From the NCBI GenBank assembly GCA_023055425.1, contig JALGPY010000010.1:23452363-23516362 (forward strand): 64,000 nt of DNA, in the 5' to 3' direction. The position numbers and the translations under genes are program-made. The notes beneath the pieces were generated by a model. That model saw only the letters and a list, made by a program, of their open reading frames with translations. It was not told the origin of the DNA and searched no databases. Origin of the DNA: Linanthus parryae (taxonomy: Eukaryota; Streptophyta; Magnoliopsida; Ericales; Polemoniaceae). Shown here in pieces: positions 26,725 through 54,883 of the stretch (position 1 is the first letter of the stretch; every line of letters starts with the position of its first letter).

Positions 26725-27027
26725 TTAGAGGAAAGACGTCCTCGGAACTCTGTTTTCCTCGTCAAAGAAGTGTGGATACTTCTTCCTCATATCTTCCTCT
26801 GCTTCCCAAGTAGCTTCTTCTGTCTGATGGTTCGTCCATTGGACTTTCACTAGCTTAACGCTCTTGGTACGCGTGTACCTAGTCTTGGTATCTAGGATCT
26901 TGACATGAGTCTCTTCGTAAGTCAAGGATGGATATAACTCGATTGGTTCGGGATCCAGCACGTGGGATGAATCAGGTACATACATCTTTAGCTGTGATAC
27001 GTAAAAGACATTGTGTATACGTCCCAA
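26725..27027 (-). pseudogene. Integrase C-terminus with chromodomain
   Basis: This 100-codon open piece starts with V-F-H-V-S-Q-L-type sequence (here N-V-F-Y-V-S-Q-L-K), the normal link from integrase to chromodomain. A chromodomain follows with V-K-L-V-K-V-Q-W, E-A-T-W-E and E-E-D-M-R-K-K-Y-P-H-F-F. The chromodomain directs integration by binding methylated histone H3 in chromoviruses. A stop follows F-F-D-E-E; a frameshift near 27060 separates it from the core. Confidence 0.88.
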
Positions 27028-27079
27028 ATTAGATGGTAGGTCCAGACAGTATGAAACTTCTCCAATTCTCTTCTGGATT

Positions 27080-28070
27080 TTAATATGGCTTAAAAAACAT
27101 TGGCCTGAGTTTCCCTTTCTGATTGAATCTTGTTACTCCCTTGGTAGGCAAAACCTTAAGAAACGCCTTCTCACCCACTTGAAATTCTAACTGTCTTCTT
27201 TTCTGATTTGCATAGGATTTTTTTCTGTCTTGTGCTGCCTTCATTTGTTGCTGGATGAGTCTCACTTTATCTGTCATTTCTTCAATCATTTGTGGGCCTA
27301 TCACCACTTTCTCGCTGATGTCACTCCAACATAGAGGCGTTCGGCACTTTCTCCCATACAATGCTTCATTGGGTGCCATGCCAATGATGGCGTGGTAGCT
27401 GTTGTTGTATGAGAACTCTATCAGTGGAAACTTTTCGACCCATGACCCTTGGAAATCCATTACACAAGTTGAGTTCCCAACGCTTCTTGAAGAGGCTTCT
27501 AGAAATGTGAGAGAAATTTAGGGTCCCTGTCTGAGATTATTGAACTCGGAACCCCGTGGTATCTCACTATGTTCTTGATATACGCATCATCTCTTTCCTC
27601 CATGCTCCATGTGTCCTTCATTGGAATGAACCTTGCTGTCTTGGTCAATCGGTCTACCACTACCCATATCTGATTGAGTCCATTCTTCGACGTCGGCAAA
27701 GCAGTTACGAATTCCATAAAAATGGAATCCAATTTCCAGACTGGGACGTCCAATGGCTGAACTAAGCCCCCCATTCTCTTGTGCTCGAACTTCACCTTCT
27801 GATAGGTTAAGCATCGTGCTACAAACTCAGCTACTTCCTTCTTCATGTTGGGCCACCAAAAGGTCTTCTTCAAATCCTTGTAGAGTTTTTCCCCCCAGGG
27901 TGAACAGAATAAGGAGTGTTGTGGGCTTCGCGCATTAGCTTTTCTTTGGTTTCTGCGTACTTTTGCGGTACGCAGCACCTTCCCTTGTAGCGAATGCCCC
28001 CATCTTCATGAATCTCGAAGTCTTTAGCTTCTCCTGCTGCATTCTTCTTCCTGATCCTTTCGAGCTTCAC
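27080..28070 (-). pseudogene. Chromovirus integrase
   Basis: The minus-strand pieces 28070-27870, 27978-27499 and 27460-27080 carry, in order, the zinc-binding region (H..H in E-A-H-N-T-P-Y-S-V-H, and C-L-T-Y-Q-K), the rve core with V-V-V-D-R-L-T-K and S-D-R-D-P-K-F, and the later core with E-F-S-Y-N-N-S-Y-H and E-A-L-Y-G-R-K-C. The first catalytic Asp, normally in M-D-F-V, is Glu here (M-E-F-V). Two frameshifts break the frame. Confidence 0.87.
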
Positions 28071-28239
28071 ATCTCCGGCTTGGTCGGTCTTATTTCCTCG
28101 ATGAAGTTTGGCACAACTTCACGCTCTCAAGTATGCCATGCACTTTCCCTTGTTCCACCACTTCTATCAAGTTTTTTGAATTCGTGGCATAGCCAAATTG
28201 GCAAGACGATCATAACAATCATTTCATGGCTCGACTTTC

Positions 28240-28836
28240 GAATCAACGCATCGGCGACCACATTTGCTTTCCCTTCGTGGTACTAGATACGCAAGTCATA
28301 GTCCTTGATATTCTCTAGCCATCTTCTTTGTCTGTTGTTCAGTTCCTTCTGCGTGAAGATGTATTTCAGGCTTCTATGGTCCGTATAGAGCTTGCAAACT
28401 GCCCGTACAGATGATGTCTCCATATCTTCAGCGCGAAAACTATGCTGCCAACTCCAAGTCATGCGTAGCATAGTTCTTCTCGTGGGGTTTCAATTGTCTT
28501 GAGGCATAGGCAATTACTCTTCTTTCTTGCATAAGCACAAACCCTAGACCTTTCTTTGATGCATCATTCTACACCTCAAACTCGCCAGAGTTTTTGGTAG
28601 AGCCAATACTGGTGCCGTAGTAAGTCTCTCCTTCAAGGTCTCAAATGCCTCTTCACAGCTGTCATCCCATTGATACTTCACTGTTTTCTTTGTCAGCGTA
28701 GTCAGTGGCCTAGCGATTTTGGAGAAGTCTTTACAAAGCGCCGATAATACCCTGCTAAGCCAAGGAAACTCCTTATTTCAGACACGTTCTTCGGAGTTGG
28801 CCAATCTTTAACTGCTGAGATCTTTCCTGGGTCTAC
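28240..28836 (-). pseudogene. Chromovirus RNase H
   Basis: Broken frames encode the RT connection and RNase H, ending with [14 protein letters not shown] and [13 protein letters not shown] at about 28290-28400. This is the diagnostic end of gypsy RNase H. Multiple frameshifts and stops are present. Confidence 0.82.
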
Positions 28837-29584
28837 TTATATTCCTTCCTTTGAGATGATGTGACCCAAGAATGGAACACTGTCCAGCCTAAACTCACAT
28901 TTAGACAGCCTGGCATACAACTGTTCTTGTCTCATAGTCTGCAACACTTTTCTTAGATGTTCCTCGTGATCCTCCTCGTTCTTCGAGTATACAAGGATTT
29001 CATCGATAAAGACCACTACAAATCGATCCAGAAACGGCCTCATTACTCGGTTCATCAAATCCATAAACACTGCAGGTGCATTGGTCAGACCAAATGGGAT
29101 CTCTGTGAACTCATAATGGCCATATCTGGTTCTGAAGGTAGTCTTCGGAATATCCTTTCCGGCTACCCGAAGTTGATCGTACCCTGAACTCATATCAATC
29201 GTAAAGAAAACACTAGCCCCTTGTAGTTGATCGAACAGATCGTCAATCCGGGGCAGAGGATACTTGTTCTTGATGGTTACGCTGTTTTAATTCTCGATAC
29301 TCGATGCATTGCCTCAGGCTTCCATCCTTATTCTTTACGAAAAGCACTGGTGCTCCCCAGGGTGATACACTTGGTCGTATATATCCCTTCTCCAGGAGTT
29401 CTTGTAGTTGATCCTTGAGCTCCTTTATTTCTGCTCGTGCCATCTGATACAGTGCCTTCGAGATAGGAGCCGTTCCAGTTTCTAAGTCTAGGGTAAACTC
29501 CACTTCTCGTTTAGGTGGCATCCCTGGAATTTCGTCTGGAAAGACATCGGGAAAGTCCCTCACGACGAGTATCTCCTCCAACAT
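28837..29584 (-). pseudogene. Chromovirus reverse transcriptase
   Basis: The N-terminal piece (29584-29243) has F-P-D-V-F-P, then [13 protein letters not shown] and a variant of C-I-D-Y-R. The C-terminal piece (29193-28837) has [25 protein letters not shown], the catalytic box F-I-D-E and F-L-G-H-I-I-S. The box is normally F-I-D-D, so the second catalytic Asp is lost. A frameshift near 29240 separates the pieces. Confidence 0.9.
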
Positions 29585-29605
29585 ATTTTCCTTCTTGGAT
29601 ACATC

Positions 29606-30090
29606 CTAGACGTAACACAGGTAGGCAGAGTTTCCCTTCCTCACTTGATTGACTATAGTCAAGGCTGAAACTAGTCTGATGCGAGGTTCCCTTGTGATAC
29701 CACGATAGGTGATCTTCTCCCCTTTGGTTCCTTTCAACCGAACCTTCTGATGATAAGAGTCGATAACTGCGCGATACGTCCCGAGCCAGTCCATCCCTAG
29801 AATAACATCTATACCCCCAAGGTCAAACTTTATCAGGTTGGCTGGTAGGGTACTAGTTAGGATTTTCAGCTTGACTTCTTCAAATATGGTGTCACACACT
29901 GTTATTTGACCAGTAGGGGTTGCTACGGGAATGAATATGGTAGATGACTTATTCAAACCCAGTTTTTCAACAAATGATGATGATATGAAAGAGTAAGATG
30001 TACCAGAATCAAATAATACGAATGTTGGTTGCTCGTTGATAAGAAATGTACCAGTGACAACTCCATGAGCAGCTTCTGCTTCAGTCTTTG
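29606..30090 (-). pseudogene. Chromovirus aspartic protease
   Basis: The open piece 29956-29606 holds the protease body, with F-D-V-I-L-G-M-D-W-L as the conserved block (here G-G-I-D-V-I-L-G-M-D-W-L). The catalytic motif L-F-D-S-G-T-S lies upstream near 30010-30025 in a continuing frame. The region links zinc-knuckle gag to RT in the usual order. Confidence 0.83.
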
Positions 30091-30429
30091 TGATGACAGC
30101 AATCCTTCCGACATTGGCATTCTGAGTTCTAGCTCCTCCTGCTGCATTGTTGTTGACTGCAGCGCCAGCGTTGTTGTTGCGGTTATGGCCTCCATTCTGT
30201 CTGGCATTCCTCTGGTTGTAGTTTGGCTACCTTCCATAGCAATTACCCCCATTGTTCTGAGGGTTTCCAAAGTTCCCATACCCAATCTGCAGGTTGGCCG
30301 GTTGCTGGTTTCCATACTGTTGGTTGTGCCTGAAATTGTTCCCATTTTGCTGGCGATTCCCCTGGTGGTTGTTTTGTTGCAGCCTCCGAAATTTTCCTCC
30401 TCGATTCACTTGATGGTTCCCTGCTGGTG

Positions 30430-31269
30430 GTGATCGTTATTCATAGGCTCGATGTCCCCTCCTGCCACAGTGTTGCAGGTGACTACATTTCCTTCACAAT
30501 CCGTCCCTGAGTGGTTCCGTGGGCACATCTTGCAGAAATGGCGACGAGCTCGTTGATTTTCTGGTTCTGTTGGTTGACTCGATACTGACCGTGGTTACCT
30601 CATCCGTTGTTGGACCTCATCCTCTGGTTTCCTTTCGCAAAGTTATTGTTACATCCTCCGGCTTCCTCTAGCTTGCGCTTCTTGCTTCTTTCCTCCTGGA
30701 CTTCTTGGACTCGCCATATATCAGCGGCTCTATCATAGACTTCATGAAGGGTTGGATAAGTTCTGCCCAGCAGAGACGTCTGCAGCCGCTCGTGCAATCC
30801 AGAGAGGAATTTTGAAACTTTCGACTCTTCATCGGGAATCGTGTTGCCAGCAAACCGCATCAGCTCTCCGAAAATACTCTGTTACTGAGTCATTTCCTTG
30901 CTCCAGGTTCTGAAATTCTTGTTGCTTGCTCCTTTTTTCATGACAAGGATAAAAGCGGGATCTGAGAGCAGTCTTAAGGGATTCCCAATTGAAGTTGGGC
31001 TGAGTCAAGAGGGCTTCTCGAGCATTCCTCCACCAGAGGTTTGCCTCGCTCTTCAGATAAAACACCGCACAATTGATCTTCCGGTCCTCAGGGCATTCCA
31101 CATTCTCAAGGATCTTGTCCATCTCCATGATCCAGTCTTCCAGTTCAACAGGGTTTTCATTTCCCATGAAACTTGGCAGTTTCATGTCTGCCACTTGCTT
31201 GGCCCAGTTATTTCCTGTCCGAGATCCATTGCCCATCATTTCAGCCATTTGAGAAAAGAATTTCTCCAT
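30430..31269 (-). pseudogene. Chromovirus Gag
   Basis: The first 146 codons (31269-30829) begin M-E-K-F-F and include W-I-M-E-M-D-K-I, then A-N-L-W-W and F-N-W-E-S-L-K. The frame then shifts into 30860-30600 with F-L-S-G-L and Y-D-R-A-A. A zinc knuckle of form C-K-M-C-(3)-H-(4)-C lies at about 30497-30537. Retrotrans_gag order is clear; one frameshift at about 30840 and later breaks inactivate it. Confidence 0.85.
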
Positions 31270-31833
31270 TTTTTTTGTTTTTGTTTTCTTCCATCTGATC
31301 TTGTTGGACTCTCCTGGTGTAGTAGCGCATTGCTCTATCTGTCATATCCTTACACTATCACCTATTGTATCATTTCTTAATCTATTATTGGATCGAAAGA
31401 TAAACATAAATCACCTTATAAAGTACATGCTTAACAGTCCATGTAACACATGTATCACACTTAAAAACCATCTACCACATAAGAATCAAGACATGCAACA
31501 TCTAACAATTCGTAATCATACTTGCTTTCATAAATTTTCTCAATGTATAATTGTCTTTTCTCAAGCAAGCTTAATACAAAACTCTTTTCTTCATTACGAG
31601 AGTAAATTATATCCCACATATAGCAATAAAGATAATCACAACTAGTATCTCCAAGTACTGTCAAGCACATAACGTGTCTCGTGACTAACAAAAAAGATGT
31701 AGGTGGGTGGGACCAATAAGACCAGAACTTAGACTACCCATAACCCAATCGGCTTGTCAATTTTTATTATATTTTTCCTAGTTTAATTTTAAGGTTGCCC
31801 TACAGGTTTTAATTTTCCCTTTTTGGACAGCCC
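31270..31833 (-). other. Chromovirus 5' leader
   Basis: Non-coding sequence between the primer-binding site and the gag ATG. It is AT-rich with no conserved frame. Confidence 0.6.
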
Positions 31834-33515: not shown

Positions 33516-33639
33516 CTTCAAGTAATGAGTCATGTAATTTTATCAAATAAGGGAAACGATTGTTATTCTTATTGAAAAAGAATTGACTTTCAACTTAGAG
33601 AAATTGTTTCTTAATATTTCACAATTATTTTTAATATAT

Positions 33640-33843
33640 TGTTGTAAGACGAGATCTAAGATGAGAGAAGAAATAAAGAGAAACAAGGTGTAGGGAGAAT
33701 AGTGATGATAGATGATATTATTCTCCAACCCTATGCCTCCTTATATAGGCATTAGGGTGGGCTAATGGGCCAATAACAATGTACAACGGGCTTACAAGAT
33801 GTGGTGGATATTCACCAATAAACTAGCCCAATATTTCATAACA
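33640..33843 (-). repeat. 3' LTR of the non-autonomous element
   Basis: 204 bp, TGTTGTAAG to CATAACA. The minus strand has a TATA-like CCTATATAAGG. Confidence 0.93.
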
Positions 33844-33853
33844 CTCCCCCTTG
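33844..33853 (-). promoter_or_regulatory. Polypurine tract of the non-autonomous element
   Basis: The minus strand reads CAAGGGGGAG directly before the 3' LTR. Confidence 0.8.
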
Positions 33854-33870
33854 AATATTCACCATAAGGA

Positions 33871-34198
33871 TGCCTCGTTAAAACCTTGTCAAGAAAAACC
33901 CAGTGGGACAAAATCTCTGACGAAGGAAAAAGAGTACATCGGTGCTTGAAAACTTGTACCGTCTGCCTCGTTAAAACCTTTACCAAGTAAAACCCAGTGG
34001 GACAAAAACTTGGCTCAGGAAAAAGAGTACAGACCTAAATAAACGTTCTCCTTGTCATTGCGAATCTTCTGGATTCTTTGTTGACTTTCATTGAAGATGA
34101 CATTCTTCAGGATCTCACATTTGGCTGCGTGCCTCATTAAAAACCTTGCTAGGAAAAACCCTGTGGGATAAAAACCTCAGCGAAAGAAAAGAGTACAG
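33871..34198 (-). repeat. Three dispersed copies of a ~67-bp repeat
   Basis: Copies start at 33871, 33964 and 34130. Each runs TGCCTCGTTAAAACC, then ACCCAGTGGGACAAAA, then AAAAAGAGTACA with small changes. The same words are common just upstream of the polypurine tract in plant copia elements. Confidence 0.88.
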
Positions 34199-34525
34199 CG
34201 CCTCATAGTTTCGGGATTGAACATTGAAACTCCCCCTCTTCATAGCATCAATTGATATAAATTTCACTTCCTTCAATGCTTTCTTGGAAGTATATCATCA
34301 TAAATCATTTGGGGCTTAGGACCTGTAATATAAAATCACGGAGAAAACAAAATCTAGCCATTTGTGAATAGACATACAAACACATCCAAATATATGATGC
34401 AATACTACATGACCATGTAGAGATAATAAACAAAACTATTTATCAATAGTCGTCATGTCATGTGATTGTATGTAATGTCAGGTGATATGTGACAAAATGC
34501 AAATGCACCTAGACTACTCGCGAGT

Positions 34526-37500
34526 GTACACTTTGAGTTGCTTCAGGCAACTAGATATCTTTCATGGGTATCAACCTCCATGATTTTCACATAAAGTGAT
34601 TCGTACGATCATTTGGTGTAACTAGTTACTTTCACATTCGTAGTCTTCTAGACTAAACGAAATGTCACAATCACTCTTACCAAAGAGATGATTTGTGGGT
34701 TATAATTATAACCATGAGAAATATTGATGTAACTTAGGCATCACTTGCACTATGGCATAATTCTCTTTCAATAGTCTCAAGCATTCAACCATTAGGGTGC
34801 GGACATTTGAATATATTATTCTATACGAACATGGATGCTATGAGCATATAAAGTACTTCAAGGTACTTCCCAAATATGCTCTATGCATTAACTGCAGAGC
34901 ATGTGTATATTTACACACACTAATTCAATATGGACATTGATGCTTCGAACATCACAAGTACTCTTGGTACTTATAATTATACTCCATGCACTGCTAAAAT
35001 GCAGAGTTTGTATCCTCTTGTCCATTATTGGTTGACTTTTGTCATGGCCAAATATTTAAGTCAACTTCATCCACTTCAAGTGGTAAATGGAAATCATATA
35101 TGATTTCAAGCGCTTTTCTAATTAAAGTATCATCAACCGTAAGATCATGAGATTAATCTCAAATTATGTACCTTAGCTTCTTCAAGAGCTTCATGCCTCT
35201 TCCAGGGCAATTTATTTTCCAACGTTGGCTTTGATCTAATGTTGATGATATCATATCTTTTCTCATAATCATGAGAATTATTCATATCTTGTGTTCTCAA
35301 TTTGGGACTTTAAATCGCACAAGATTTGGATGCTTTTGACATCCTCTTCTGGAGGATCATAATATTTGAACAAGCAATCCTTACATGCTACTGGCATGAT
35401 TTCAAACCAAATACTCATTAGTCAATTAGACTTCAGTCTATAATGGAACTTCTAACTTTACACCAGTATAGCTGGATGTAAATGAGATAAAAATAAAGTT
35501 CACGTCGTGCAATATGGTCTATCTCCCCCTCATGACGTGAAACTCATGACCGTAATAACTTCTCGATTTATGCTTCTAGCATAAAAAAATCCAAGCAGAC
35601 ATTAAAGTCATGCCATGCAATTTATCTCTCTATGAGATATGATATGTCACAGTTCCAATTTTCATATTCTCATAAACTCTAGTCACTACTACCATGCGAC
35701 GAGTTATTATTCATTGAGAAATATGTCGTGATTCTGACTTCCTTCAAGAAGTTTAATGAGATAATTTGGTCGTTCTCTCTGGGGAACGCAAGAGGTAGAA
35801 ATAATCCCCAAAAAAATCCTTGTGGGATTAGTATCAATTAATGAAATCTCTCAAAATTGGATCATAATATCCTCCATCAAGCATAAATGCTTCTATGAAT
35901 ATTTAGAATAACATGCTAAAGTTCTCAAAATAATCTCCGTGGAGGGAGGATAGCAAGTTTCATACTCTTCGTGAGGCTTCATACAATATTTAGATATTTC
36001 TAAATGTATGAATGATAACATCGAAACCACTGCAGGGGTTGATTGTTATATCTCAACCTCTTTTAGAGATTTTCAATGACAATTTCTATCCATAACCACA
36101 ACTTAGTCCGTTATCTTGTAGACTATTTGGACCATATGACATTCACTTCTGGGAATGTGGGTCAATTTTGGTTGGTCATTTTGAGAGACTATACGTCATT
36201 AACAAATATTCATCATAAATAGCAATATAACATCAAAACCACTTCAGGGGCTTGATTGTAATTTGATTATCTTCTTTCCCATTGATACAAAAATACAACG
36301 CATCAACTAGGCGTTGGTTTGGCGATGTAACCATCAAGCCTTATGCGTTCCCTCATAAAGATATCTTCGTAAAGAATGCCCTCTTTCTCCAAATGATTTG
36401 AAGTTTGATTCATGGAGTCATAGCTCTAAAGATGCCAAGCAACTAGAAGCTTCTCAAATAACCCAATAAAGCTCCAGAACGCAACAAAGTTCATAGGGGA
36501 TGCTCTTTTTGCAACTATTGATGCATTTATTTTCTCCCCCTGTTTTTATGCAGTCTTTCTCTTTCGGATAAATCATAAAGATGCACTTCAATATATGACA
36601 ATGGACGTGCATATCATTGCAACTTGAGTCCATGACTGCAGCGATTATTGTGACACCATAGATTGGTTCACTTAAGAAAATGCGTCACCATTTTCTTAAA
36701 AAAATTGTTGTAGAGTAGGCATTTGCTTCTGGAAATGCTCTACAGTCCATTTCTCAACAAGGGACCAACTTATCATAATGTTGATCATTAAATCTTTCGC
36801 ATTACTCCACAGGAGTGTCCATTTGATAATATGCTATAACTCTTGGTCATAACATGTATTTCACAACTTCTGGCATGAAATACAACATATATCAATATCA
36901 ACTGCTTTAAGAGTCTACCATTCAAAGATTGTGTACTCATATCATGAGGAGGCCATAATAAAAAAAAATCCTCTTAAGGGAGGATGACTCATCTTTGCAA
37001 TGATCAAAACAACAAGCTCATATTCATCCATTCACAATCGCTTGAGCCTTTCATATGAGTGGCTTGTGGAAACAGAATGAGTTGTACTTCTGGTACACGA
37101 TCAGGATTCTGGCCTTTTCTAGCAGTGTTTATTTTTTTGAATTGAACTTCGGGTTCAATGGTTCTGAGAAAATAGCCTCAACTTTATCAAAATTTTTTGA
37201 CTTCGGGTCATAAAATACCTCATAACTGCATTATATGAGTAATTAAATATGTCCAACAAATATTAATGTGGACTAAGAACTTCTTCCAGAGGTTCTTTCG
37301 ACAAAATAGAGATCTTCTTCCCGAGTTTAATCTCTTTTAGAGATTTTTCACATTCACAACCATGACCGCCTCTATCGTCACGTGAATTTCGACCGGATAT
37401 AACAAAGTGATTCGCTTCTGGGAATGCACTACCATTCACTCATGGGAATGGGGTCGAATTAGTCGGTCCTGAACAATGGCTATAGTTTAAATGTCATAAC

Positions 37501-38680
37501 TTCAAGTTATTGACAATGTAACTTCCTTTCACAACTTCTGGTGTGAAAAATTTCTTTGCCGCTAGCAATATCAATTGCTTTTTATACTTGCCATTGTATG
37601 GTATACAAGTCTCTCCAGGAGATCTTTTGACATAACTTTATAACATCATGTTATAATTTCTTCATGTTTTTCATAACTTTTGGTATGAAAACGATTTTAC
37701 TCGCATGCAAATAGCGTATGTCCATTAAATAATCATGGACTAAGAACATCTTCTGGATGCTCTTCAGGGGGATTAATCAATTATCAATTTTGTATATATC
37801 TCTTCAGGAGAAGTGTCATAACTGCAGGTTATGATCAATACATCATGTAATTCGTAACTCCAAGTACGATACAAACTTACGCCCCTTATGTCCAGTATAA
37901 GCAATGGACTTAAAATCTCTTCTGGAGATTTTACTTTGACCAATAATCAACAAAGATCAAGAGTGTAGAAAAAAAAATTATGTACAAGTAAAGAAAAAGA
38001 AAAAGAACTGAACACGACCTCTTCAGGAGGGTGGATCATTATTTGAATTGTAGCAATCTCTGTAGGAGATCACTATTTATAATATTTCATAACTTCAGGT
38101 TATGAAAGTCATAACTACAAGTTATGATTGATGTAATGTAATTCGTTACTCCAAGAACAAATTACATGGCTAGACATGTGTGTCAATAGCCTCTACGAAA
38201 ACTCTTCTGGAGTTTCGTTTTTGATCCATTATAAGTATATAAAAAAAAATGAAATGCAGAAAATTAAAGTGCATAAAAGTAAAATAAACTAAAGAACACA
38301 TAACGCTACCTCTTCAGGAGGCTTGGTAATAACAAGCGTTTTAGATGTTTCAGACATCTCTTCAGAGGATGTAGTGATAATACCTATGACTTCAGGTCAT
38401 AAAAAAATATTATTGTAACTTAGCCGCCTATATAAAACCTATGACTTCAGGTCATAAAAAATACCTATGACTTCAGGTCATAAAAAAAATATTATTGTAA
38501 CTTCAGGTTACAATCAAATATTATGTAGCTCATAAATTCAGGTGTGAAAACATAATTTCTGTAAGCGTATGAAAAGCTTAAACCATCGATAGTGGTCATG
38601 TATTACGACCTCTTCCGGAGGTTCCGTCGGATTATGACCTCTTCTGGAGGTTTTTAGAGAACAACCTCTTCAGAAGGTTT
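34526..38680 (-). repeat. Array of dozens of short hairpins with a conserved pentaloop
   Basis: Over 4.1 kb the sequence is studded with perfect short inverted repeats with arms of 4-9 bp, a 5-base loop and a C-G closing pair. The loop is mostly TTCNG/A on the plus strand (YNGAA on the minus, transcript strand). Examples: 34536-34552, 34641-34655, 34956-34972, 35341-35357, 35384-35398, 35569-35583, 37083-37097, 37141-37159, 37817-37833, 37913-37931, 38085-38107, 38109-38127, 38199-38215, 38494-38514. Arm sequences differ from hairpin to hairpin while the loop stays similar, so these are not copies of one palindrome. Longer-looped ones also occur (36145, 36860, 37530, 37670). Confidence 0.85.
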
Positions 38681-39739
38681 AAATAATAACATAAAAAAAA
38701 TATCTTCCAGAAACATGTATGTTCTTCAACAGAAAAAACAAATAAATAATATGATATACGACATAAACTTTGTGAACTAAAGTAATTAATACTCAGAATA
38801 AGTAGCCATACACACATTTGAACAATCACTGCCACATTGATTGTACATTAGCTAATTGATAAAAAACATATTAATCTCGTTGTGAGTTGGTAACCAAACA
38901 ACCCATTAACTAAAACACATATTATCACGTAACATAACAGATCAAATATTACATCCTCTAAATTGTCAAGGACACACGATTGCAAAAGATTTGATGTTCC
39001 TTTCTTTGTCATGCCAAATACTGTTTATACGAATGTTCAAAAACAAAACTTGCATAACATACATATAGACCATGTATCTACCCAAAAGTGGTGCGAAGCT
39101 TTTAAGGAACACAGATTCTACTCTAGCCAACACTAACTCTGTTTTTATTCTAATATATTTCTCTTTTTGTAAAATAAGAACTTAATAAAAATAAATAGAG
39201 ATAAATAATCAATAAACAAACACCTAGGCTAAAAATCCTAAGTCATGTTCATAGCCTTTTTCTTGGCTATCAAAAACTACTGGTAAGTACTGTGTCCCTT
39301 AGGTGACATCCAGGAAAAAAAAACTAGGTACTTTTCTCAAAGAAAAGCTAGGTACACAATTTATTTTCAGATTTAAACAAGTGCTATTAGAGAGATGACA
39401 TCATCATGCAATTTCTTCAACAACTTATGGATAAGCAGGAAGTTGGACGTTTGATTCGGGGCGGTGACTTCGGTATGCTAAGCCTACCCAAGCCTACTGG
39501 ATCCCTTTGACCCATTCTTTTGAAGCAATACATAATAAAAAAAAATCATAATATGAACATACTACCTCTGTTCAAATCACGTAGGACATCCAAAACCGAA
39601 AAATTAATTTTTCCGTTTGGGTGTTCTTTTCTGATTTACAAAACTAAAACCCATAATCCAAACATATACCTGTTATTTGGTAGATCCCTCTTATTAATAT
39701 ATCTTCTCCGACTGATTGATGCGGAGCTGGTTAGAGCAA
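38681..39739 (-). other. 5' interior of the non-autonomous element
   Basis: AT-rich, no reading frame of note, and almost no hairpins of the array type. It lies between the primer-binding site and the hairpin array and probably serves as leader. Confidence 0.6.
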
Positions 39740-39752
39740 CGTGCTGATAACG
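39740..39752 (-). promoter_or_regulatory. Primer-binding site of the non-autonomous element
   Basis: The minus strand reads CGTTATCAGCACG directly after the 5' LTR, a form common in plant copia elements. Confidence 0.75.
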
Positions 39753-39956
39753 TGTTGTAAGACGAGATCTAAGATGAGAGAAGAAATAAAGAGAAACAAG
39801 GTGTAGGGAGAATAGTGATGATAGATGATATTATTCTCCAACCCTAGGCCTCCTTATATAGGCATTAGGGTGGGCTAATGGGCCAATAACAATGTACAAC
39901 GGGCTTACAAGATGTGGTGGATATTCACCAATAAACTAGCCCAATATTTCATAACA
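39753..39956 (-). repeat. 5' LTR of the non-autonomous element
   Basis: 204 bp, identical to 33640-33843 except for G instead of T in CCCTAGGCC. Confidence 0.93.
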
Positions 39957-42900
39957 TATATATATATATATATATTTACTAGTAGAAACGATATTTAATT
40001 GCAACTTTTGTTAGTAGAATAAATATAGGCATACCAAATCTAACTAGTTAGAAACCACAATCTATTCTTATCTTATCAATTTAAACATGTAACTAGCTCT
40101 TTTTATTCATATCAATTGTTCTCCTTCAAAATTAAACACCCAAACCACTTCATTTTGTTAAAGGTTAATATAACTACAATTTGTTATGATGAATAATTGC
40201 ATGTTGTATAATCCACAACAAGATCCCCCCTACGTTTTCACATGCCATAACATGTTTTTAAATTTTCAGAAAGTACAAGACATCCCCCTACCAAAACTAT
40301 GGACAGTTTAAATAAAAGACAATCTATACCCCAAGTTTTATGAAAACACACTTTCACCCCCTTTTACATAAACTATAAAATTGATCAACCTAAACCCGGA
40401 TCCGTGCCTCAATATATGATTTTGATTATATAATATGAACTAGGGAGTGATTTAGAGATTATGTAACACCCCCACCTCTCAGAGCTGGAGAATATACCAG
40501 AAGACCCCGAGACTCGTGGGAGTGTCCTCCGCTAAGGCACGGGAATGCCTCAGCAAGGAGTCAAAGTCTAACGGTTCTGTTAAGAGACAGAATTAAAGAA
40601 ACTGAAAACTAAATCAAACTTACTATTATACTTTGAGTACTTCTAAGTGATTGACTATATCCCCATATTCCCACGTCCTCGAAGACACTCAAGCCAGGAC
40701 CTTGTCACATTGACACATATAACACAGATAGAATAACGGTAAATTATAACTCATGGAATCCTCAATAATCCATAACCATCACAACCATACCAGCCTTATA
40801 CGGAGGATCCCGAATCCCACCACCCAGAGGGTCGTGAAACAAGATTCACTTCCGACAAGGAAGGTTTAATCAATCCATCAAGACAAACTAGACCTTTAGT
40901 GTGCACACCCCCTACTGGACATTAGTCCAGAGAGTAGTACTAGTTGCCTACTATGTCCGAAGACAATTCCCAGTTGTCCGAAGACAACACAACGTCCGAA
41001 GACGATTCCCAGTTGTCCGAAGACAACACAATGTCCGAAGACGATCATACCACCACATATCACAACTAGGAACTATATGATTCATATGAGTGCTATCATC
41101 TTATAGTAAGACATGCACTAGAACAAGCATACATATGCATACCTGATATCCAGCCTAGTTTCCTAATCAGCATAGCTGATTTCATAATCTAGCAAACATT
41201 ATTCAATTCCAACATATATGCTATTAACACTTGTCCTCAAAGTAACGAGGAATGCACAATGCAGATGTTATGTTGATTGTCCCGCCAGGATTACTATTTT
41301 TCCCATGACAACTCAGTCTCTTCAATACAGTCTCAGACTGTGCCTGAACCTCCCAATGATACTCAATGAAGTCTATAAATATACAAATATGATTCCTATA
41401 CCTTCCTGATATACTCAGTTTTGAATTCTATAACTTTCACTTATTTACATTCAGGTTCCTGTAGCTTAACAAAACTACAAAAAAGTCCCTACAGTTGACT
41501 TTTAGTCGATTTCAACCCAGATAGGTGTATACTAGCTCCAAATATTATGAAACTGGTACATAGGCAAGAGGTCATGCCTAGAGTTAGGATTTTACAGTCA
41601 AATTCAAATTATTACAAAATTACCGATTTGCCCCTCCTATATAGCTCAGCCAAACTACGGTTTTCAGAAAGTTGAACTTGGTCAAACTTGACCCGTAGAC
41701 TTAAAATGTTATTCCGAACAACTTTCGAGAAGGATATTTTGGTCAACTAGTTCATCTTACAAGTCAAATGACACGTAAATGAGAAGAAACAAACAGACCT
41801 CCGATTCATTTAGCGGTCATGAAGATACTGCGATCCTTATGATATGTCAAACTTCAGGATGATGATAACTTAGTTCCAATGGACATTCACTACCACTTTA
41901 ACCAGCATCTGGGTGTGTTTAGATACATGGCTAAGCTAGCACATGATCATAGCTTTGTAGCTGGCAAAGTTAGGAGGACTGAGGTTTAAGATTTGATCAA
42001 ATTGGTTTAGTATTACTCATGATACAGCAGCCACAAAGTGGCAAAGAAAATCCAGGGCAAAAACTTGTGAGCCAACATTGGCCACATGTAGAAACTTCTA
42101 ATCTGATACCAAGAATGATTTATTATTTTATTTTTATTTCTTTTGTTTGTTTATTATTTTCTTAAAGCAGGATATTGGAGCTTGAATGCTCAAGATTACA
42201 ATAAAGATAAAAGTCATTTCACCAAGACAGTAGTTAGAAATATTCTTGGCAATTTGGTTGAAATCCCAGGGCAGTGCATTATGCTTCATGAAAAATAGAT
42301 ACAACCACCTTCAACACAATTTTCAGGAGCTCGAAGGTTCGCATTAAGAGACAAATAAACTTGCAAATTGCAGTATTACGTGTATGGAACAAACAGGATC
42401 AAACAGAGATTCATTTGACTTATTAATGATCAAGTTACAAAGATCACAATTTTGTCGAAAATCACAGGTTCAAGTACGACAGTTCATAGCAAAGTTCCGT
42501 AACCATTTCAACCCATTTTGAAGAGATTTAGAGACTCATTTAGGAGAAGAAATCAATATGAAAATTCTAGTATCAATCACTCGGAATAAACAGTAACAGT
42601 TATCTCCTAAGATTATTCACTTAGGTGGTAGCTACAGGGACAACAAAAATGGATTAAGTCTGAGACTCTATAGTTCACAATCAAGAACAAGTAATCCCCC
42701 TTAATGTTGTAGAGGGGAGTGTGATGAATCAAATGCACCCAGAAGCAAGACAAGATATCAACGAGAGAAGAGGTACAGAACTCCAAGAACAGGACACAAC
42801 TATCACCGTAAAAACGATGACTTTCAGTTAAAAGAAAGCACGAGAGATGATTTTACCATGCTCCGACAAACAATGGAAGAAACCGGCGAGTTCCTTGCCA

Positions 42901-43274: not shown

Positions 43275-44531
43275 TGTCACGACCCGTACCTTTTTTTTTC
43301 GCTTTAAGTTGATTACGAATTTGTCAGAGTAGAACGCGCACTTTTCGGCCGCGACGGAAATACGAACCTTTTTCGCTTTTAGATAAAATATAGCGGAAGC
43401 TTTAGAAATAAACAACTCTTTTCATTTTCAATCAAAATCATCATTTTCCTATTCATTTGAACAATAAACGTTTACAAATCTCTAATAAAAGAATATTAAC
43501 AAATATTACAATTAATATGAAAATGCCGTAATCTAAGCACGTCTATAGTCTTCGATCCATCCGTTCCGGTACCTGTAATTATTTTAAGGTGAGCAAAAAG
43601 CCCAGTAGGTACCGCCTAACCACTGGCGTAGAAATATAATAATCATTTAAACTGTAACATCGATCACGAATCACATAATTATCATGCTTTATACTTCATG
43701 CGAATAACAAACAATAACTTAACAATCAACATATAAGCAGATAATCATGTGCATAGACCGTAATTACAGTAGACGTGAGAACTATATTTCCCCTACCTTA
43801 ATATCATCTTCACGATAACAGCATTGAAATGATATGAAAAACTCCGAATCTTTTATCTCAGAATATTCTCAATATATCTCTAGTGCATCCCTATCTCTCT
43901 CTCACTTATCAGTAGTTAAATTGAATCTGGAAAGAGAAATAACTATAGCACTGAACCCTATTTATAGAAGTCAACGACCAATCAGATCGCGACGAGTCAC
44001 AGGGACACATGTCTCACATGCAATGAAAGCTGTGCCACACGACGACACGTGTCGCCTGTGTGTCACACATGGATAAGGATGGCCTCAGAGCATGACACAT
44101 AACCCCCTTACGTGTCGCGCATGCAGGGACAGTCGCAGATATTGTGACACATGTCCCTCTGCGTGTCACACATTCATTCGGCTAAATATAAATGCTTATC
44201 CTCAACCACCGCGTCAAATAAACATGTAATTTAGTCATGTCAAGCATTTAACAAGCCACATATCGCGAGATGCATAAACAATACTTAATTATCACTTAAA
44301 CTAGTGATTAGAACTAATTAACACTCAAACATTAGCACTAATTAACACTTAAACTAGTGATTAGCACTAATCATTCCCTAATTTTTTTTATCTTTAATTC
44401 AGAAATAGAATAAGAAATTGTGACTTTCGGTGTCTTTCTAGACGAGCTTAACATTTATAGTTTAGCAGTTATGAATAGATCTATCAGAAAGCTAAATTCT
44501 TAAACATGAAATAAAGTGAAGTAATATAACT
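43275..44531 (-). repeat. LTR copy A1
   Basis: 1257 bp, diverged from the B type. Relative to B its U3 end on the minus strand lacks about the first 30 bases, so it ends ATATAACT on the plus strand instead of TTATTACA. Confidence 0.88.
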
Positions 44532-45183
44532 TGTCACGACCCGTATCTTTTTCTCTTTACGTTGATTAATAATACATCAGAGTAAACGCGTCATTTTTAG
44601 GCCGCGACGGAAATACGAACCTTTTGGCTTTTGAATAAAAATAGCGGAAGCTTAGAAATAGACAACTCTTTTCAATTTGAATGAAAAACGTCATTTTCCT
44701 ATTCAATTGAGCAATATCGTTTACAATTATCCAATAAAAGAATCTTGACAAATATTACAATTAATTTGCAAACGCTATAAATCTAGCCCGTCTATAGTCT
44801 CGAATCGACCCGTTCCGGTACCTGTAGATATTTTAGGGTGAGCAAAAAGCCCAGTAGGTACCGCCTAACCACTGGCGTAGAAATATAATAATCAATTAAA
44901 CTGTAACATCGCGAATCACATAATTATCAAGCTTTAGACATCATGCGAATAACAAACAATAACTTAACAATCAACATATAAGCATATAATCATGTATAGA
45001 CCGTAATTACAGTAGACGTGAAAACTATATTTCCCCTACCTCAATAATAGCTTCAGGATAACAGCTTTGAAATGATACAAGTAGCTCCTAATCTCTTATC
45101 TCGGAATATTCCCAGTATCTCTCTATCTCACTTATCGGTAGTTGAATCGAATCTGGAATGAGAAATAACTAAAGCACTAGCCT

Positions 45184-45394
45184 CTATTTATAGAAGTCAA
45201 CGACCAATCAGATCGCGACGAGTCACAGGGACACATGTCGTGCATGCACTGAAAGCTGTGCCACACAACGACACGTGTTGCCTGTGTGTCACACATGGAT
45301 AAGGATGGCCTCAGAGCGTGACACATAACCCCCCCTACGTGTCGCGCATGCAGGGAAAGTCGCAGATGTTGTGACACGTGTCCCTCTACGTGTC
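45184..45394 (-). promoter_or_regulatory. LTR promoter with TATA box and ACGTG cluster
   Basis: On the minus strand a TATA box, CTATAAATAG (45184-45193), is preceded within about 200 bp by four ACGTG elements at 45272-45277, 45337-45343, 45373-45382 and 45388-45394. Three of these include ACGTGTC. ACGTGTC is the ABA-response element core and CACGTG the G-box in plants. The same arrangement recurs in B2 and B3. Confidence 0.6.
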
Positions 45395-45513
45395 AAACAT
45401 TTATTTGGCCAAATCTAAATGCTTATCCTCAACTACCGCGTCAAATAAACATGTAATTTACTCACGTCAAGCATATAAAAAGCCACATATCACAAGATGC
45501 ATAAACAATACTT

Positions 45514-45631
45514 AATTAACACTTAAACTAAAGATTATCACTAACTAACACTTAAACTAGTAATTAGCACTAATTAACACTTAAACTAGTGGTTAGCACT
45601 AATTAACACTTAAACTAGTGATTAGCACTAA
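45514..45631. repeat. 29-bp minisatellite in the B LTR
   Basis: About four copies of a unit like TTAACACTTAAACTAGTG followed by ATTAGCACTAA. A-type LTRs have two to three copies. Confidence 0.88.
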
Positions 45632-45812
45632 TCATTCCCTAATTATTTTTATCTTTAATTTAGAAATAGAATAAGAAATTATGACTTTCGGTGTATTTCT
45701 GGTCGAGCTTAACATTTATAGTTTAGTAATTATGAGTACATCTATCAACTACTAAACAATTAAATATGAAATAAACAGATGTAACATAAGCTTAAGAAAT
45801 GCAGTTATTACA

Positions 45813-46157
45813 TTCTTCCCTCCTTAATAAAATTTCGTCCTCGAAATTTGAATTTTAATTATAGTGGGTTTCTATTTCAAAAATCATTCTTATCATGACA
45901 TAAACAATCTCATCACTTTTGCATAGCCAGACAGCATGCCTACAACACTCCCCTTGCGCCCCGGCATACCTCGCTTGGATCAAGTTAGCCAAGACCGAGT
46001 CCCGTGCGTAGGTGACGAGCGATGCAGGTACCACACTCTACCCCAAAACGTATCCGGCATACCTCGCTTGGATCAAGTTAGCCAAGACCGAGTCCCGGGC
46101 GCAAATGTCGGGTAAGGTGGATTTAACACACCGGGCTGGCACCGCTCTGATACCAAA
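45813..46157 (-). other. Internal domain 1 of the array
   Basis: 345 bp. On the minus strand it has primer-binding site TGGTATCAGAGC (46144-46155) and polypurine tract AAGGAGGGAAGAA (45813-45825), preceded by a CGAGGACGAAATT word typical of Tekay 3' ends. A 44-bp block occurs twice (45961-46004 and 46054-46097). No coding capacity. Confidence 0.9.
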
Positions 46158-47414
46158 TGTCACGACCCGTACCTTTTTTTTTCGCTTTAAGTTGATTACG
46201 AATTTGTCAGAGTAGAACGCGCACTTTTCGGCCGCGACGGAAATACGAACCTTTTTCGCTTTTAGATAAAATATAGCGGAAGCTTTAGAAATAAACAACT
46301 CTTTTCATTTTCAATCAAAATCATCATTTTCCTATTCATTTGAACAATAAACGTTTACAAATCTCTAATAAAAGAATATTAACAAATATTACAATTAATA
46401 TGAAAATGCCGTAATCTAAGCACGTCTATAGTCTTCGATCCATCCGTTCCGGTACCTGTAATTATTTTAAGGTGAGCAAAAAGCCCAGTAGGTACCGCCT
46501 AACCACTGGCGTAGAAATATAATAATCATTTAAACTGTAACATCGATCACGAATCACATAATTATCATGCTTTATACTTCATGCGAATAACAAACAATAA
46601 CTTAACAATCAACATATAAGCAGATAATCATGTGCATAGACCGTAATTACAGTAGACGTGAGAACTATATTTCCCCTACCTTAATATCATCTTCACGATA
46701 ACAGCATTGAAATGATATGAAAAACTCCGAATCTTTTATCTCAGAATATTCTCAATATATCTCTAGTGCATCCCTATCTCTCTCTCACTTATCAGTAGTT
46801 AAATTGAATCTGGAAAGAGAAATAACTATAGCACTGAACCCTATTTATAGAAGTCAACGACCAATCAGATCGCGACGAGTCACAGGGACACATGTCTCAC
46901 ATGCAATGAAAGCTGTGCCACACGACGACACGTGTCGCCTGTGTGTCACACATGGATAAGGATGGCCTCAGAGCATGACACATAACCCCCTTACGTGTCG
47001 CGCATGCAGGGACAGTCGCAGATATTGTGACACATGTCCCTCTGCGTGTCACACATTCATTCGGCTAAATATAAATGCTTATCCTCAACCACCGCGTCAA
47101 ATAAACATGTAATTTAGTCATGTCAAGCATTTAACAAGCCACATATCGCGAGATGCATAAACAATACTTAATTATCACTTAAACTAGTGATTAGAACTAA
47201 TTAACACTCAAACATTAGCACTAATTAACACTTAAACTAGTGATTAGCACTAATCATTCCCTAATTTTTTTTATCTTTAATTTAGAAATAGAATAAGAAA
47301 TTGTGACTTTCGGTGTCTTTCTAGACGAGCTTAACATTTATAGTTTAGCAGTTATGAATAGATCTATCAGAAAGCTAAATTCTTAAACATGAAATAAAGT
47401 GAAGTAATATAACT
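46158..47414 (-). repeat. LTR copy A2
   Basis: 1257 bp, essentially identical to A1; I noticed a single difference (TTTAATTTAG versus TTTAATTCAG). Confidence 0.9.
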
Positions 47415-48695
47415 TGTCACGACCCGTATCTTTTTCTCTTTACGTTGATTAATAATACATCAGAGTAAACGCGTCATTTTTAGGCCGCGACGGAAATACG
47501 AACCTTTTGGCTTTTGAATAAAAATAGCGGAAGCTTAGAAATAGACAACTCTTTTCAATTTGAATGAAAAACGTCATTTTCCTATTCAATTGAGCAATAT
47601 TGTTTACAATTATCCAATAAAAGAATCTTGACAAATATTACAATTAATTTGCAAACGCTATAAATCTAGCCCGTCTATAGTCTCGAATCGACCCGTTCCG
47701 GTACCTGTAGATATTTTAGGGTGAGCAAAAAGCCCAGTAGGTACCGCCTAACCACTGGCGTAGAAATATAATAATCAATTAAACTGTAACATCGCGAATC
47801 ACATAATTATCAAGCTTTAGACATCATGCGAATAACAAACAATAACTTAACAATCAACATATAAGCATATAATCATGTATAGACCGTAATTACAGTAGAC
47901 GTGAAAACTATATTTCCCCTACCTCAATAATAGCTTCAGGATAACAGCTTTGAAATGATACAAGTAGCTCCTAATCTCTTATCTCGGAATATTCCCAGTA
48001 TCTCTCTATCTCACTTATCGGTAGTTGAATCGAATCTGGAATGAGAAATAACTAAAGCACTAGCCTCTATTTATAGAAGTCAACGACCAATCAGATCGCG
48101 ACGAGTCACAGGGACACATGTCGTGCATGCACTGAAAGCTGTGCCACACAACGACACGTGTTGCCTGTGTGTCACACATGGATAAGGATGGCCTCAGAGC
48201 GTGACACATAACCCCCCCTACGTGTCGCGCATGCAGGGAAAGTCGCAGATGTTGTGACACGTGTCCCTCTACGTGTCAAACATTTATTTGGCCAAATCTA
48301 AATGCTTATCCTCAACTACCGCGTCAAATAAACATGTAATTTACTCACGTCAAGCATATAAAAAGCCACATATCACAAGATGCATAAACAATACTTAATT
48401 AACACTTAAACTAAAGATTATCACTAACTAACACTTAAACTAGTAATTAGCACTAATTAACACTTAAACTAGTGGTTAGCACTAATTAACACTTAAACTA
48501 GTGATTAGCACTAATCATTCCCTAATTATTTTTATCTTTAATTTAGAAATAGAATAAGAAATTATGACTTTTGGTGTATTTCTGGTCGAGCTTAACATTT
48601 ATAGTTTAGTAATTATGAGTACATCTATCAACTACTAAACAATTAAATATGAAATAAACAGATGTAACATAAGCTTAAGAAATGCAGTTATTACA
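47415..48695 (-). repeat. LTR copy B2
   Basis: 1281 bp, nearly identical to B1. Differences noticed are ATATTG for ATATCG and CTTTTGG for CTTTCGG. Confidence 0.9.
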
Positions 48696-49040
48696 TTCTT
48701 CCCTCCTTAATAAAATTTCGTCCTCGAAATTTGAATTTTAATTATAGTGGGTTTCTATTTCAAAAATCATTCTTATCATGACATAAACAATCTCATCACT
48801 TTTGCATAGCCAGACAGCATGCCTACAACACTCCCCTTGCGCCCCGGCATACCTCGCTTGGATCAAGTTAGCCAAGACCGAGTCCCGTGCGTAGGTGACG
48901 AGCGATGCAGGTACCACACTCTACCCCAAAACGTATCCGGCATACCTCGCTTGGATCAAGTTAGCCAAGACCGAGTCCCGGGCGCAAATGTCGGGTAAGG
49001 TGGATTTAACACACCGGGCTGGCACCGCTCTGATACCACT
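48696..49040 (-). other. Internal domain 2 of the array
   Basis: 345 bp, a copy of 45813-46157. Here the primer-binding site (49027-49038) is followed by the spacer CT before the B3 LTR, instead of AA before A2. Confidence 0.9.
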
Positions 49041-50321
49041 TGTCACGACCCGTATCTTTTTCTCTTTACGTTGATTAATAATACATCAGAGTAAACGCGT
49101 CATTTTTAGGCCGCGACGGAAATACGAACCTTTTGGCTTTTGAATAAAAATAGCGGAAGCTTAGAAATAGACAACTCTTTTCAATTTGAATGAAAAACGT
49201 CATTTTCCTATTCAATTGAGCAATATCGTTTACAATTATCCAATAAAAGAATCTTGACAAATATTACAATTAATTTGCAAACGCTATAAATCTAGCCCGT
49301 CTATAGTCTCGAATCGACCCGTTCCGGTACCTGTAGATATTTTAGGGTGAGCAAAAAGCCCAGTAGGTACCGCCTAACCACTGGCGTAGAAATATAATAA
49401 TCAATTAAACTGTAACATCGCGAATCACATAATTATCAAGCTTTAGACATCATGCGAATAACAAACAATAACTTAACAATCAACATATAAGCATATAATC
49501 ATGTATAGACCGTAATTACAGTAGACGTGAAAACTATATTTCCCCTACCTCAATAATAGCTTCAGGATAACAGCTTTGAAATGATACAAGTAGCTCCTAA
49601 TCTCTTATCTCGGAATATTCCCAGTATCTCTCTATCTCACTTATCGGTAGTTGAATCGAATCTGGAATGAGAAATAACTAAAGCACTAGCCTCTATTTAT
49701 AGAAGTCAACGACCAATCAGATCGCGACGAGTCACAGGGACACATGTCGTGCATGCACTGAAAGCTGTGCCACACAACGACACGTGTTGCCTGTGTGTCA
49801 CACATGGATAAGGATGGCCTCAGAGCGTGACACATAACCCCCCCTACGTGTCGCGCATGCAGGGAAAGTCGCAGATGTTGTGACACGTGTCCCTCTACGT
49901 GTCAAACATTTATTTGGCCAAATCTAAATGCTTATCCTCAACTACCGCGTCAAATAAACATGTAATTTACTCACGTCAAGCATATAAAAAGCCACATATC
50001 ACAAGATGCATAAACAATACTTAATTAACACTTAAACTAAAGATTATCACTAACTAACACTTAAACTAGTAATTAGCACTAATTAACACTTAAACTAGTG
50101 GTTAGCACTAATTAACACTTAAACTAGTGATTAGCACTAATCATTCCCTAATTATTTTTATCTTTAATTTAGAAATAGAATAAGAAATTATGACTTTCGG
50201 TGTATTTCTGGTCGAGCTTAACATTTATAGTTTAGTAATTATGAGTACATCTATCAACTACTAAACAATTAAATATGAAATAAACAGATGTAACATAAGC
50301 TTAAGAAATGCAGTTATTACA
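49041..50321 (-). repeat. LTR copy B3 (outer 5' LTR)
   Basis: 1281 bp, ending at the right GGGGT duplication. It matches B1 closely. Confidence 0.92.
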
Positions 50322-54795: not shown

Positions 54796-54883
54796 ATTTA
54801 TCTATATGTCGCTCAACCAAAAAAAGGTTGTTATGATTGATTGCTACCTGTGGATGGCATGCTATTAGGGTGAAGACCTTGTG

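Follow-up and report, generated by a model that had tools for sequence, protein, structure and literature searches.

A gene-less LTR retroelement in Linanthus parryae

The 64,000-nt stretch of Linanthus parryae DNA analysed here (contig JALGPY010000010.1; hereafter the window) contains a long terminal repeat (LTR) retroelement at positions 33640-39956, the interior of which carries an array of short hairpins with a common loop. Its two 204-bp LTRs differ by one mismatch. A sequence resembling a primer-binding site (PBS) adjoins the right LTR and a polypurine tract (PPT) adjoins the left, so the transcript should be the minus strand (Table 1). The first-pass annotation, which was made from the letters of the window alone, had described the element as coding-free. 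We found that stop codons number 114-135 per 1969 codons in each of the six frames of the interior, about what base composition gives by our own arithmetic, and that the longest stop-free stretch of the interior in the window copy is 78 codons. A Pfam scan of 10 of the open interior fragments listed for this copy returned 0 matches. The absence of genes was thus borne out, by stop counts in every frame and by the Pfam scan. Rfam gave no match at the gathering threshold anywhere in the window, hence no ribozyme or 5S match, and we rejected a known RNA family as the source of the array on that basis. With two LTRs, a target-site duplication, a PBS, a PPT, a large interior lacking gag or pol and a structurally uniform family, the element is, judged from its sequence, best explained as a LARD-like non-autonomous LTR retrotransposon, high in copy number and gene-less.

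A strand-specific hairpin array with one loop class

At least two dozen perfect hairpins with a five-base loop closed by C-G had been reported at 34526-38680. We counted 30 hairpins there with arms of at least 5 bp and a loop of exactly 5, compared with a mean of 6.4 and a maximum of 13 in 100 dinucleotide shuffles, so the shuffled controls fail to reproduce the density; the four hairpins that had been named as examples (34536, 37141, 37083 and 38494) are all present. With loop 5 and arms of at least 6 bp there were 19 hairpins (1.8 in shuffles, maximum 5), and with arms of at least 7 bp there were 8 (0.5 in shuffles, maximum 3). Every loop length from 3 to 11 exceeded the shuffled mean at arms of at least 5 bp (12-30 versus about 6). 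Loop 5 was the commonest of these, at 30, and loops of 6 to 9 gave 17, 25, 18 and 20. The hairpin list shows C-G closure in 25 of the 30 loop-5 hairpins, in agreement with the original description.

The loop itself had been described as mostly TTCNG/A on the plus strand, and it proved to be markedly one-sided. CTTCNRG occurs 34 times on the plus strand of 34526-38680 and once on the minus strand, and the strict form CTTCNGG occurs 25 and 0 times. The comparison with neighbouring sequence that had been suggested gave 8.2 CTTCNRG per kb on the plus strand of the array versus 0.5-0.6 per kb on the plus strand in the rest of the window. On the transcript, the loop consensus reads C-YNGAA-G, or loosely C-YNRNA-G.

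The interior (33844-39752) holds 82 TTCNR sites, of which 37 are C-TTCNR-G. These 37 sites span 34067 to 38705, so the hairpins lie where they had been placed but the limits first given were too narrow. At the 37 sites, arm positions 2-8 pair in 153 of 259 cells, versus 79.9 (standard deviation 7.8, maximum 115) in 10,000 swaps of right arms between sites, which upholds the claim that arms differ from one hairpin to the next and yet pair. When bulges were allowed, the stem score reached at least 4 at 32 of the 37 sites (7.9 with arms swapped, maximum 14) and at least 3 at 35 of them (12.4 with arms swapped). An unpaired base stands directly beside the closing pair in the plus-strand left arm at 9 of 37 sites and in the other arm at 1 of 37, the bulge side being taken from a single trace per site.

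It is highly improbable that the array is the remains of a decayed repetitive protein-coding sequence. Hairpins of the CCTCCTGAAGAGG type do read PPEE at a few places in open fragments, but stops lie at about the level of composition in all frames, the 10 scanned fragments have no Pfam match, and the units are irregularly spaced with arms that vary while pairing is kept. We also rejected simple tandem duplication as the source of the whole array; it fits the units at 38.4-38.5 kb, but not the variety of arms. A DNA-level dyad of protein-binding half-sites was set aside because the half-sites vary and the loop is one-sided.

Table 1. Coordinates of the retroelement and its hairpin array within the window
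Feature	Position	Strand	Remarks
Target-site duplication TATAT, 5 bp	left copy 33635..33639, right copy 39957-39961		Read directly; junctions from LTR comparison
LTR, 204 bp, 3' LTR in transcript sense	33640..33843	minus	Sequence comparison with the other LTR
PPT, AAGGGGGAG in transcript sense	33844..33852	minus	Adjoins the 3' LTR; read directly
3' domain with three 37-nt direct repeats	33880..34176	minus	Second and third repeats 84% and 81% like the first
Stem-loop array, 37 C-TTCNR-G sites (plus strand), C-YNGAA-G on the transcript	34067..38705	minus	Irregularly spaced sites, median gap 103 nt
Hairpin ATCCTC/GAGGAT	35341..35357	minus	Third pair T-A in 23 sequences, C-G in the other 6; intermediates not observed
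Example of the bulged class	36139..36158	minus	A single unpaired base separates the closing C-G pair from the rest of the stem
Hairpin ATTGAAC-TTCGG-GTTCAAT	37141..37159	minus	
Hairpin TAAAATCTC-TTCTG-GAGATTTTA	37911..37933	minus	Perfect 9-bp stem
Hairpin TTTCATAAC-TTCAG-GTTATGAAA	38085..38107	minus	Perfect 9-bp stem
Densest part of the array	38379..38660	minus	Units repeated in tandem at 38379-38487, with a period of about 26
Hairpin ATTGTAAC-TTCAG-GTTACAAT	38494..38514	minus	Sixth pair C-G in 17, T-A in 7, T-G in 4 and A-G in 1 sequence
Leader between PBS and array	38710..39727	minus	No paired motif hairpins; differs between copies
PBS region	39728..39752	minus	CGTTATCAGCACG (transcript) at 39740-39752 plus a tRNA-like extension
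LTR, 204 bp, 5' LTR in transcript sense	39753..39956	minus	Sequence comparison

Hairpin stems are conserved across the family

We searched the assembly from which the window was taken (1.51 Gb) for further copies. An LTR query gave 1444 first-look candidate places and a 1-kb piece of the array gave 935, with 40 scored in each case. Besides the window we read 38 loci: 14 defined by the LTR, 20 defined by the array and 4 from hairpin-pattern matches. CTTCNRG occurs 19-42 times on one strand and 0-7 times on the opposite strand in 37 of the 38; the exception, L014, has 1 and 0 and, being without an array, was excluded from the array statistics. Because the other 24 loci were chosen by an array-piece or hairpin match, only the 14 LTR-defined loci, 13 of which have the array, are free of selection bias. 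The hairpin pattern ATGACTTCNGGTCAT was found at 1064 places in the genome, versus 4 for the pattern read backwards. Arrays of the same kind, in which some hairpins carry other arms than the window copy, are retained in the divergent subfamilies L044-L046; these share 56-59% identity with the window across the aligned piece, and their short BLAST matches lie mostly at 77-90%. Outside this genome, one pattern gave 0 matches in viral contigs and there was no match in plasmids; a protein search with one fragment of the 3' domain gave no candidate.

Across 12 copies complete from LTR to LTR (the window and 11 others), arms were pairable at 394 of 442 motif sites, versus 101.7 after arm swapping. 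In 87 clusters of hairpin sequences, positions 2-5 were paired in 85, 85, 77 and 80 of 87, versus 31-41 expected from the columns; only hairpins with 5 or more of the first 6 positions paired were admitted, which inflates these counts. Clustering was greedy here and in the cluster counts of wobble pairs and C-G closed loops given below.

A plain identity comparison of stems is biased, since only stems that are perfect in the window copy enter it, and we therefore compared diversity among 33 copies instead. Five loci of low mapped length (L024, L026, L029, L035 and L037) were kept with their covered parts in this and the double-change analysis. Diversity was 0.059 in stems, 0.112 in flanks and 0.098 in the rest; chance palindromes with loops of 12-59, a control for the picking of perfect stems, had 0.091. 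In 24 of 31 hairpins the stem was less diverse than its flank (Wilcoxon p 5e-6). Values for A/T sites only were 0.053 in stems versus 0.087 in flanks, and for C/G sites outside CpG and CHG contexts 0.066 versus 0.149. The two A that end the loop on the transcript (positions 4 and 5) had a diversity of only 0.021-0.022 in 18 canonical hairpins.

Mismatches within the stems also differ between the strands. In motif hairpins, 17 clusters have a mismatch that is G-U on the transcript and 5 one that is G-U on the other strand (p 0.017 for 17 versus 5), with 21 of other kinds; the figures for unique hairpins are 48, 16 and 53. Single changes between divergent subfamilies are distributed likewise (transcript G-U 42, other-strand G-U 12, other 64), although these sequence pairs are not independent. 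The G-U bias favours the same strand as the order of PBS and PPT does. Among other C-G closed loops, YNRNA occurs in 11 of 22 clusters, versus 1 of 22 for the reverse-complement motif. Together, these data suggest that selection on short RNA hairpins of the transcript probably explains the array. The case rests on pairing within sites, low stem and AA diversity, the G-U bias and retention of the array in divergent subfamilies, not on orthologous covariation.

Leader, primer and an element without the array

The leader between the PBS and the array varies from copy to copy. Among 26 copies with an exact PBS, 12 leaders fall into four groups by matches of 200 bp or more and the remaining 14 are without a match, whereas the array persists. 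The window leader had 15 first-look matches in the genome (versus 935 for the array piece); besides itself, one was full-length and one covered more than half. The nearest motif hairpin lies 0.4-1.4 kb from the PBS in these 26 copies, which have 1 motif hairpin in total within the first 500 nt of the PBS and a peak of density 1-2 kb from it. The hairpin-poor first 500 nt serve as an internal control.

Of 38 oriented sequences, which include some without the PBS end, 26 have an exact copy of the PBS sequence CGTGCTGATAACGTG (plus strand, first two LTR bases included). A PBS pattern was found at 4 places in the genome in its strict form and at 74 in a broader form; with a pattern of 19 bases on contig C1, among the matches listed, 4 of 5 places are accompanied by an ATGAC hairpin that is on the same strand and lies 0.57-0.87 kb further inward. 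The PBS matches what we take to be tRNA-Ile(AAU) as far as roughly nucleotide 40; in place of A34 of the gene, a base that is presumably inosine in the mature tRNA, it carries G. A half-tRNA primer is used by Drosophila copia. From this resemblance, the primer may be the 5' half of tRNA-Ile, with inosine copied as G. A putative ice-plant microRNA, mcr-miR6 (TTCGTGCTGATAACGTGTTGAA; PMC4977306), matches the PBS/LTR junction type of this element, and such elements may exist in other plants.

The exceptional locus L014 (1-3508) shares the LTRs and the PBS type of the family, and its LTRs are 99.5% alike, but they flank an unrelated 3-kb interior that has no motif array; there is no PPT beside its LTR. 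At the PBS base facing tRNA position 34, in the numbering we assume, it has A, where the window PBS has G. By eye, its interior looks like a captured piece of a host gene with intron-exon-like junctions.

A candidate Gag-binding packaging domain

We propose a mechanism in which each hairpin would present a C-G-closed loop of five bases, YNGAA or more loosely YNRNA, with the stem serving only for presentation and its sequence being indifferent. A protein would read the apical C-YNRNA-G, and many copies of the hairpin would be bound at once. The likeliest reader would be the Gag (zinc knuckle) of an autonomous element, because a gene-less element must enter foreign particles. The array may thus form a multivalent packaging domain by which the gene-less RNA enters foreign particles, to be reverse-transcribed there. 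From our analysis, Gag binding or packaging is a tentative answer to why the hairpins exist, one we hold at slightly less than even confidence. Equally tentative is the fuller description, a LARD-like element with an RNA of about 6 kb that would be a string of some 35 stem-loops acting as a multivalent Gag-binding packaging domain. A stronger statement, that a plant retroelement gave up all of its genes and that most of its interior is now a multi-hairpin tag, C-YNRNA-G on interchangeable stems, capturing the Gag of another element at many places, is possible but doubtful.

Several results weigh against these interpretations. The folding energy is barely unusual: the mean z for 31 pieces of 150 nt was -1.19 on the transcript strand and -1.63 on the other strand, compared with -0.91 for 30 pieces elsewhere, and because the other strand scores lower, the test does not favour the transcript strand. 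Covariation, which had been suggested as a check, is strong between different sites of the array, but it is weak in the close family and not above chance in the divergent comparison. In the close family, 23 cells have double changes versus 10.7 in 300 shuffles (maximum 16; slid controls 6-16), and 9 pairs have a double change versus 6.5 (maximum 12; slid controls 4-14); the clearest compensatory changes are at 35347 and 38502. Among 40 double changes in the divergent set, 9 are Watson-Crick, where simple counting predicts about 13 (about a third), so there is no excess, and misalignment adds broken pairs to this comparison. Whole-loop diversity among the 33 copies is 0.108, like that of the flanks. 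In the 18 canonical hairpins, the loop G (0.105) and the first two loop bases (0.15-0.17) are no better conserved than the flanks; in many hairpins the plus-strand C and last loop G stand in a CHG methylation context, which may raise loop diversity. The wobble bias is not significant over all C-G closed loops (29 versus 20 clusters, p 0.25) and weak over any loop (84 versus 57 clusters, p 0.028), and base composition itself leans slightly towards transcript G-U (0.123 to 0.104). The array is also not strictly needed for integration, because L014, whose LTRs are the same and whose PBS is of the same type, has no array. Finally, a search for Copia reverse transcriptase (RVT_2) gave 65,693 first-look candidates, of which 150 were scored and 8 regions fetched; in these 8 sampled Copia regions there was no BLAST match to the hairpin family at E 0.01 and no autonomous partner was found, and 7 of the 8 have an ordinary iMet PBS. 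One of these 8 regions (L047, upstream of a Copia reverse transcriptase) has 19 loop-5 hairpins in 4.1 kb, where the shuffled rate leads one to expect roughly 6; their loops are varied, and none of the 19 has the motif loop closed by C-G.

The weak orthologous covariation and the modest folding energy would fit a mutational by-product, in which slippage or template switching multiplies units and fold-back copying during reverse transcription perfects the arms, with no selection on RNA. The tandem units at 38379-38487 fit this as well, as does the variable number of hairpins: across the 12 copies, the two hairpin types of the densest part range from 0-3 (ATGAC type) and 1-7 (CCTC type) per copy. 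By itself, however, such a process leaves unexplained the single loop class on one strand (34 versus 1), the lowered diversity of stems and loop AA, the bulged class with an intact loop and the G-U bias of motif hairpins, and we consider it distinctly unlikely as the explanation. The first-pass interpretation, that these are stem-loops shaped by selection on RNA structure, is supported in part: the hairpins are real, strand-specific, far above chance and variable in their arms with pairing kept, whereas covariation is mixed.

If RNA hairpins are under selection, their reader could be a host RNA-binding protein instead of Gag, for example of the SR or glycine-rich type, promoting RNA export, stability or nuclear retention. 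Such a protein would be one that prefers GAAG, which the motif includes. The same RNA-level evidence (pairing within sites, low stem and AA diversity) fits such a protein, as does the lack of a Gag partner in the 8 Copia regions. Proteins that bind single-stranded GAAG would hardly need stems, however, and we regard a host reader as unlikely. Less probable still is an action on silencing, in which the short hairpins would feed or evade the small-RNA machinery; such a role has been suggested for the palindromic motifs in the LTRs of maize Sireviruses. Stems of 5-9 bp are far shorter than microRNA-like hairpins, and a shared loop would not be expected, although clusters of Sirevirus palindromes have been linked to small RNAs (PMC10760457, excerpt).

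For Gag capture, an analogy is offered by Ty1, in which cis packaging sequences lie near the 5' end of the RNA and scattered further sites are thought likely; a helper-fed mini-Ty1 needs mainly its ends, and the packaging signals themselves are called not clearly defined (available sections of PMC4974528). L014 resembles mini-Ty1 in suggesting that elements with these ends are able to integrate without the array.

Other features of the window

Elsewhere in the window, arrays of a 29-nt tandem repeat (TAATTAACACTTAAACTAGTGATTAGCAC) recur at steps of about 1.2-1.7 kb at 44286-50141. By eye, a 524-aa open frame on the minus strand at 53230-54801 resembles plant cytochrome P450, and a broken Gypsy-like element on the minus strand at 26728-31341 has gag, reverse transcriptase and integrase-like fragments in open frames.

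Relation to known elements and packaging systems

The LTRs of LARDs are about 4.4 kb long in the original Triticeae group, compared with 204 bp in the Linanthus element, which therefore departs from that group in LTR length. LARDs such as Sukkula of Triticeae are gene-less LTR elements described as having well-conserved RNA secondary structures; nothing like the present series of about 35 regular hairpins that share a pentaloop appears in the consulted sections of that account (PMC7215508). Sireviruses, also LTR elements of plants, likewise carry palindromic motifs in high copy number outside coding sequence, but their palindromes lie in the LTRs near the promoter (for HOPIE and Inga, additionally on the 5' side of env) and most have a CGG-CCG core, according to an extract of PMC2829016. 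In the Linanthus element, the hairpins lie in the internal domain, the arms are variable and the loop is common; its 204-bp LTR has no CGG-CCG palindrome cluster by eye, and there is no gag by stop counts or in the Pfam scan of 10 fragments. Retrozymes and TRIMs (Cassandra) are also non-autonomous plant LTR elements with a functional RNA sequence (PMC4918200 and PMC7215508, both in part). Unlike them, the Linanthus element has a large interior and no ribozyme or 5S match in Rfam, and so no hammerhead ribozyme in its LTR was detected at the gathering threshold.

The pentaloop closed by C-G has a counterpart in lambda boxB, which is of the GNRNA type. The loops of the array mostly start with a pyrimidine, occur in many copies and have no N protein. 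Dispersed packaging signals, which are also present in designed capsids, combine many stem-loops, a common loop motif and variable stems, and the array has all three. In MS2, satellite tobacco necrosis virus and hepatitis B virus, many stem-loops with a shared loop motif lie along one RNA, as in the array (PMC6281560 and PMC7612645, excerpts). Coat-protein contacts have been measured for such viral signals (PMC4751978, excerpt), whereas the RNA considered here is that of a retroelement. Searches of open-access papers brought up no earlier description of a regular hairpin array with one loop and many stems over 4.6 kb. LARDs with conserved RNA structure are known, and we regard the regular string of hairpins with a single loop class as a variation on them.

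The array bears on how gene-less LTR elements (LARDs and TRIMs) are chosen for packaging. A family of high copy number in which some 35 similar loops sit on free stems is a ready-made, testable recognition code, and the array is a natural parallel to the dispersed packaging signals of RNA viruses. If the array does capture Gag, an LTR retrotransposon would have a system of dispersed packaging signals of the sort known until now from RNA viruses.

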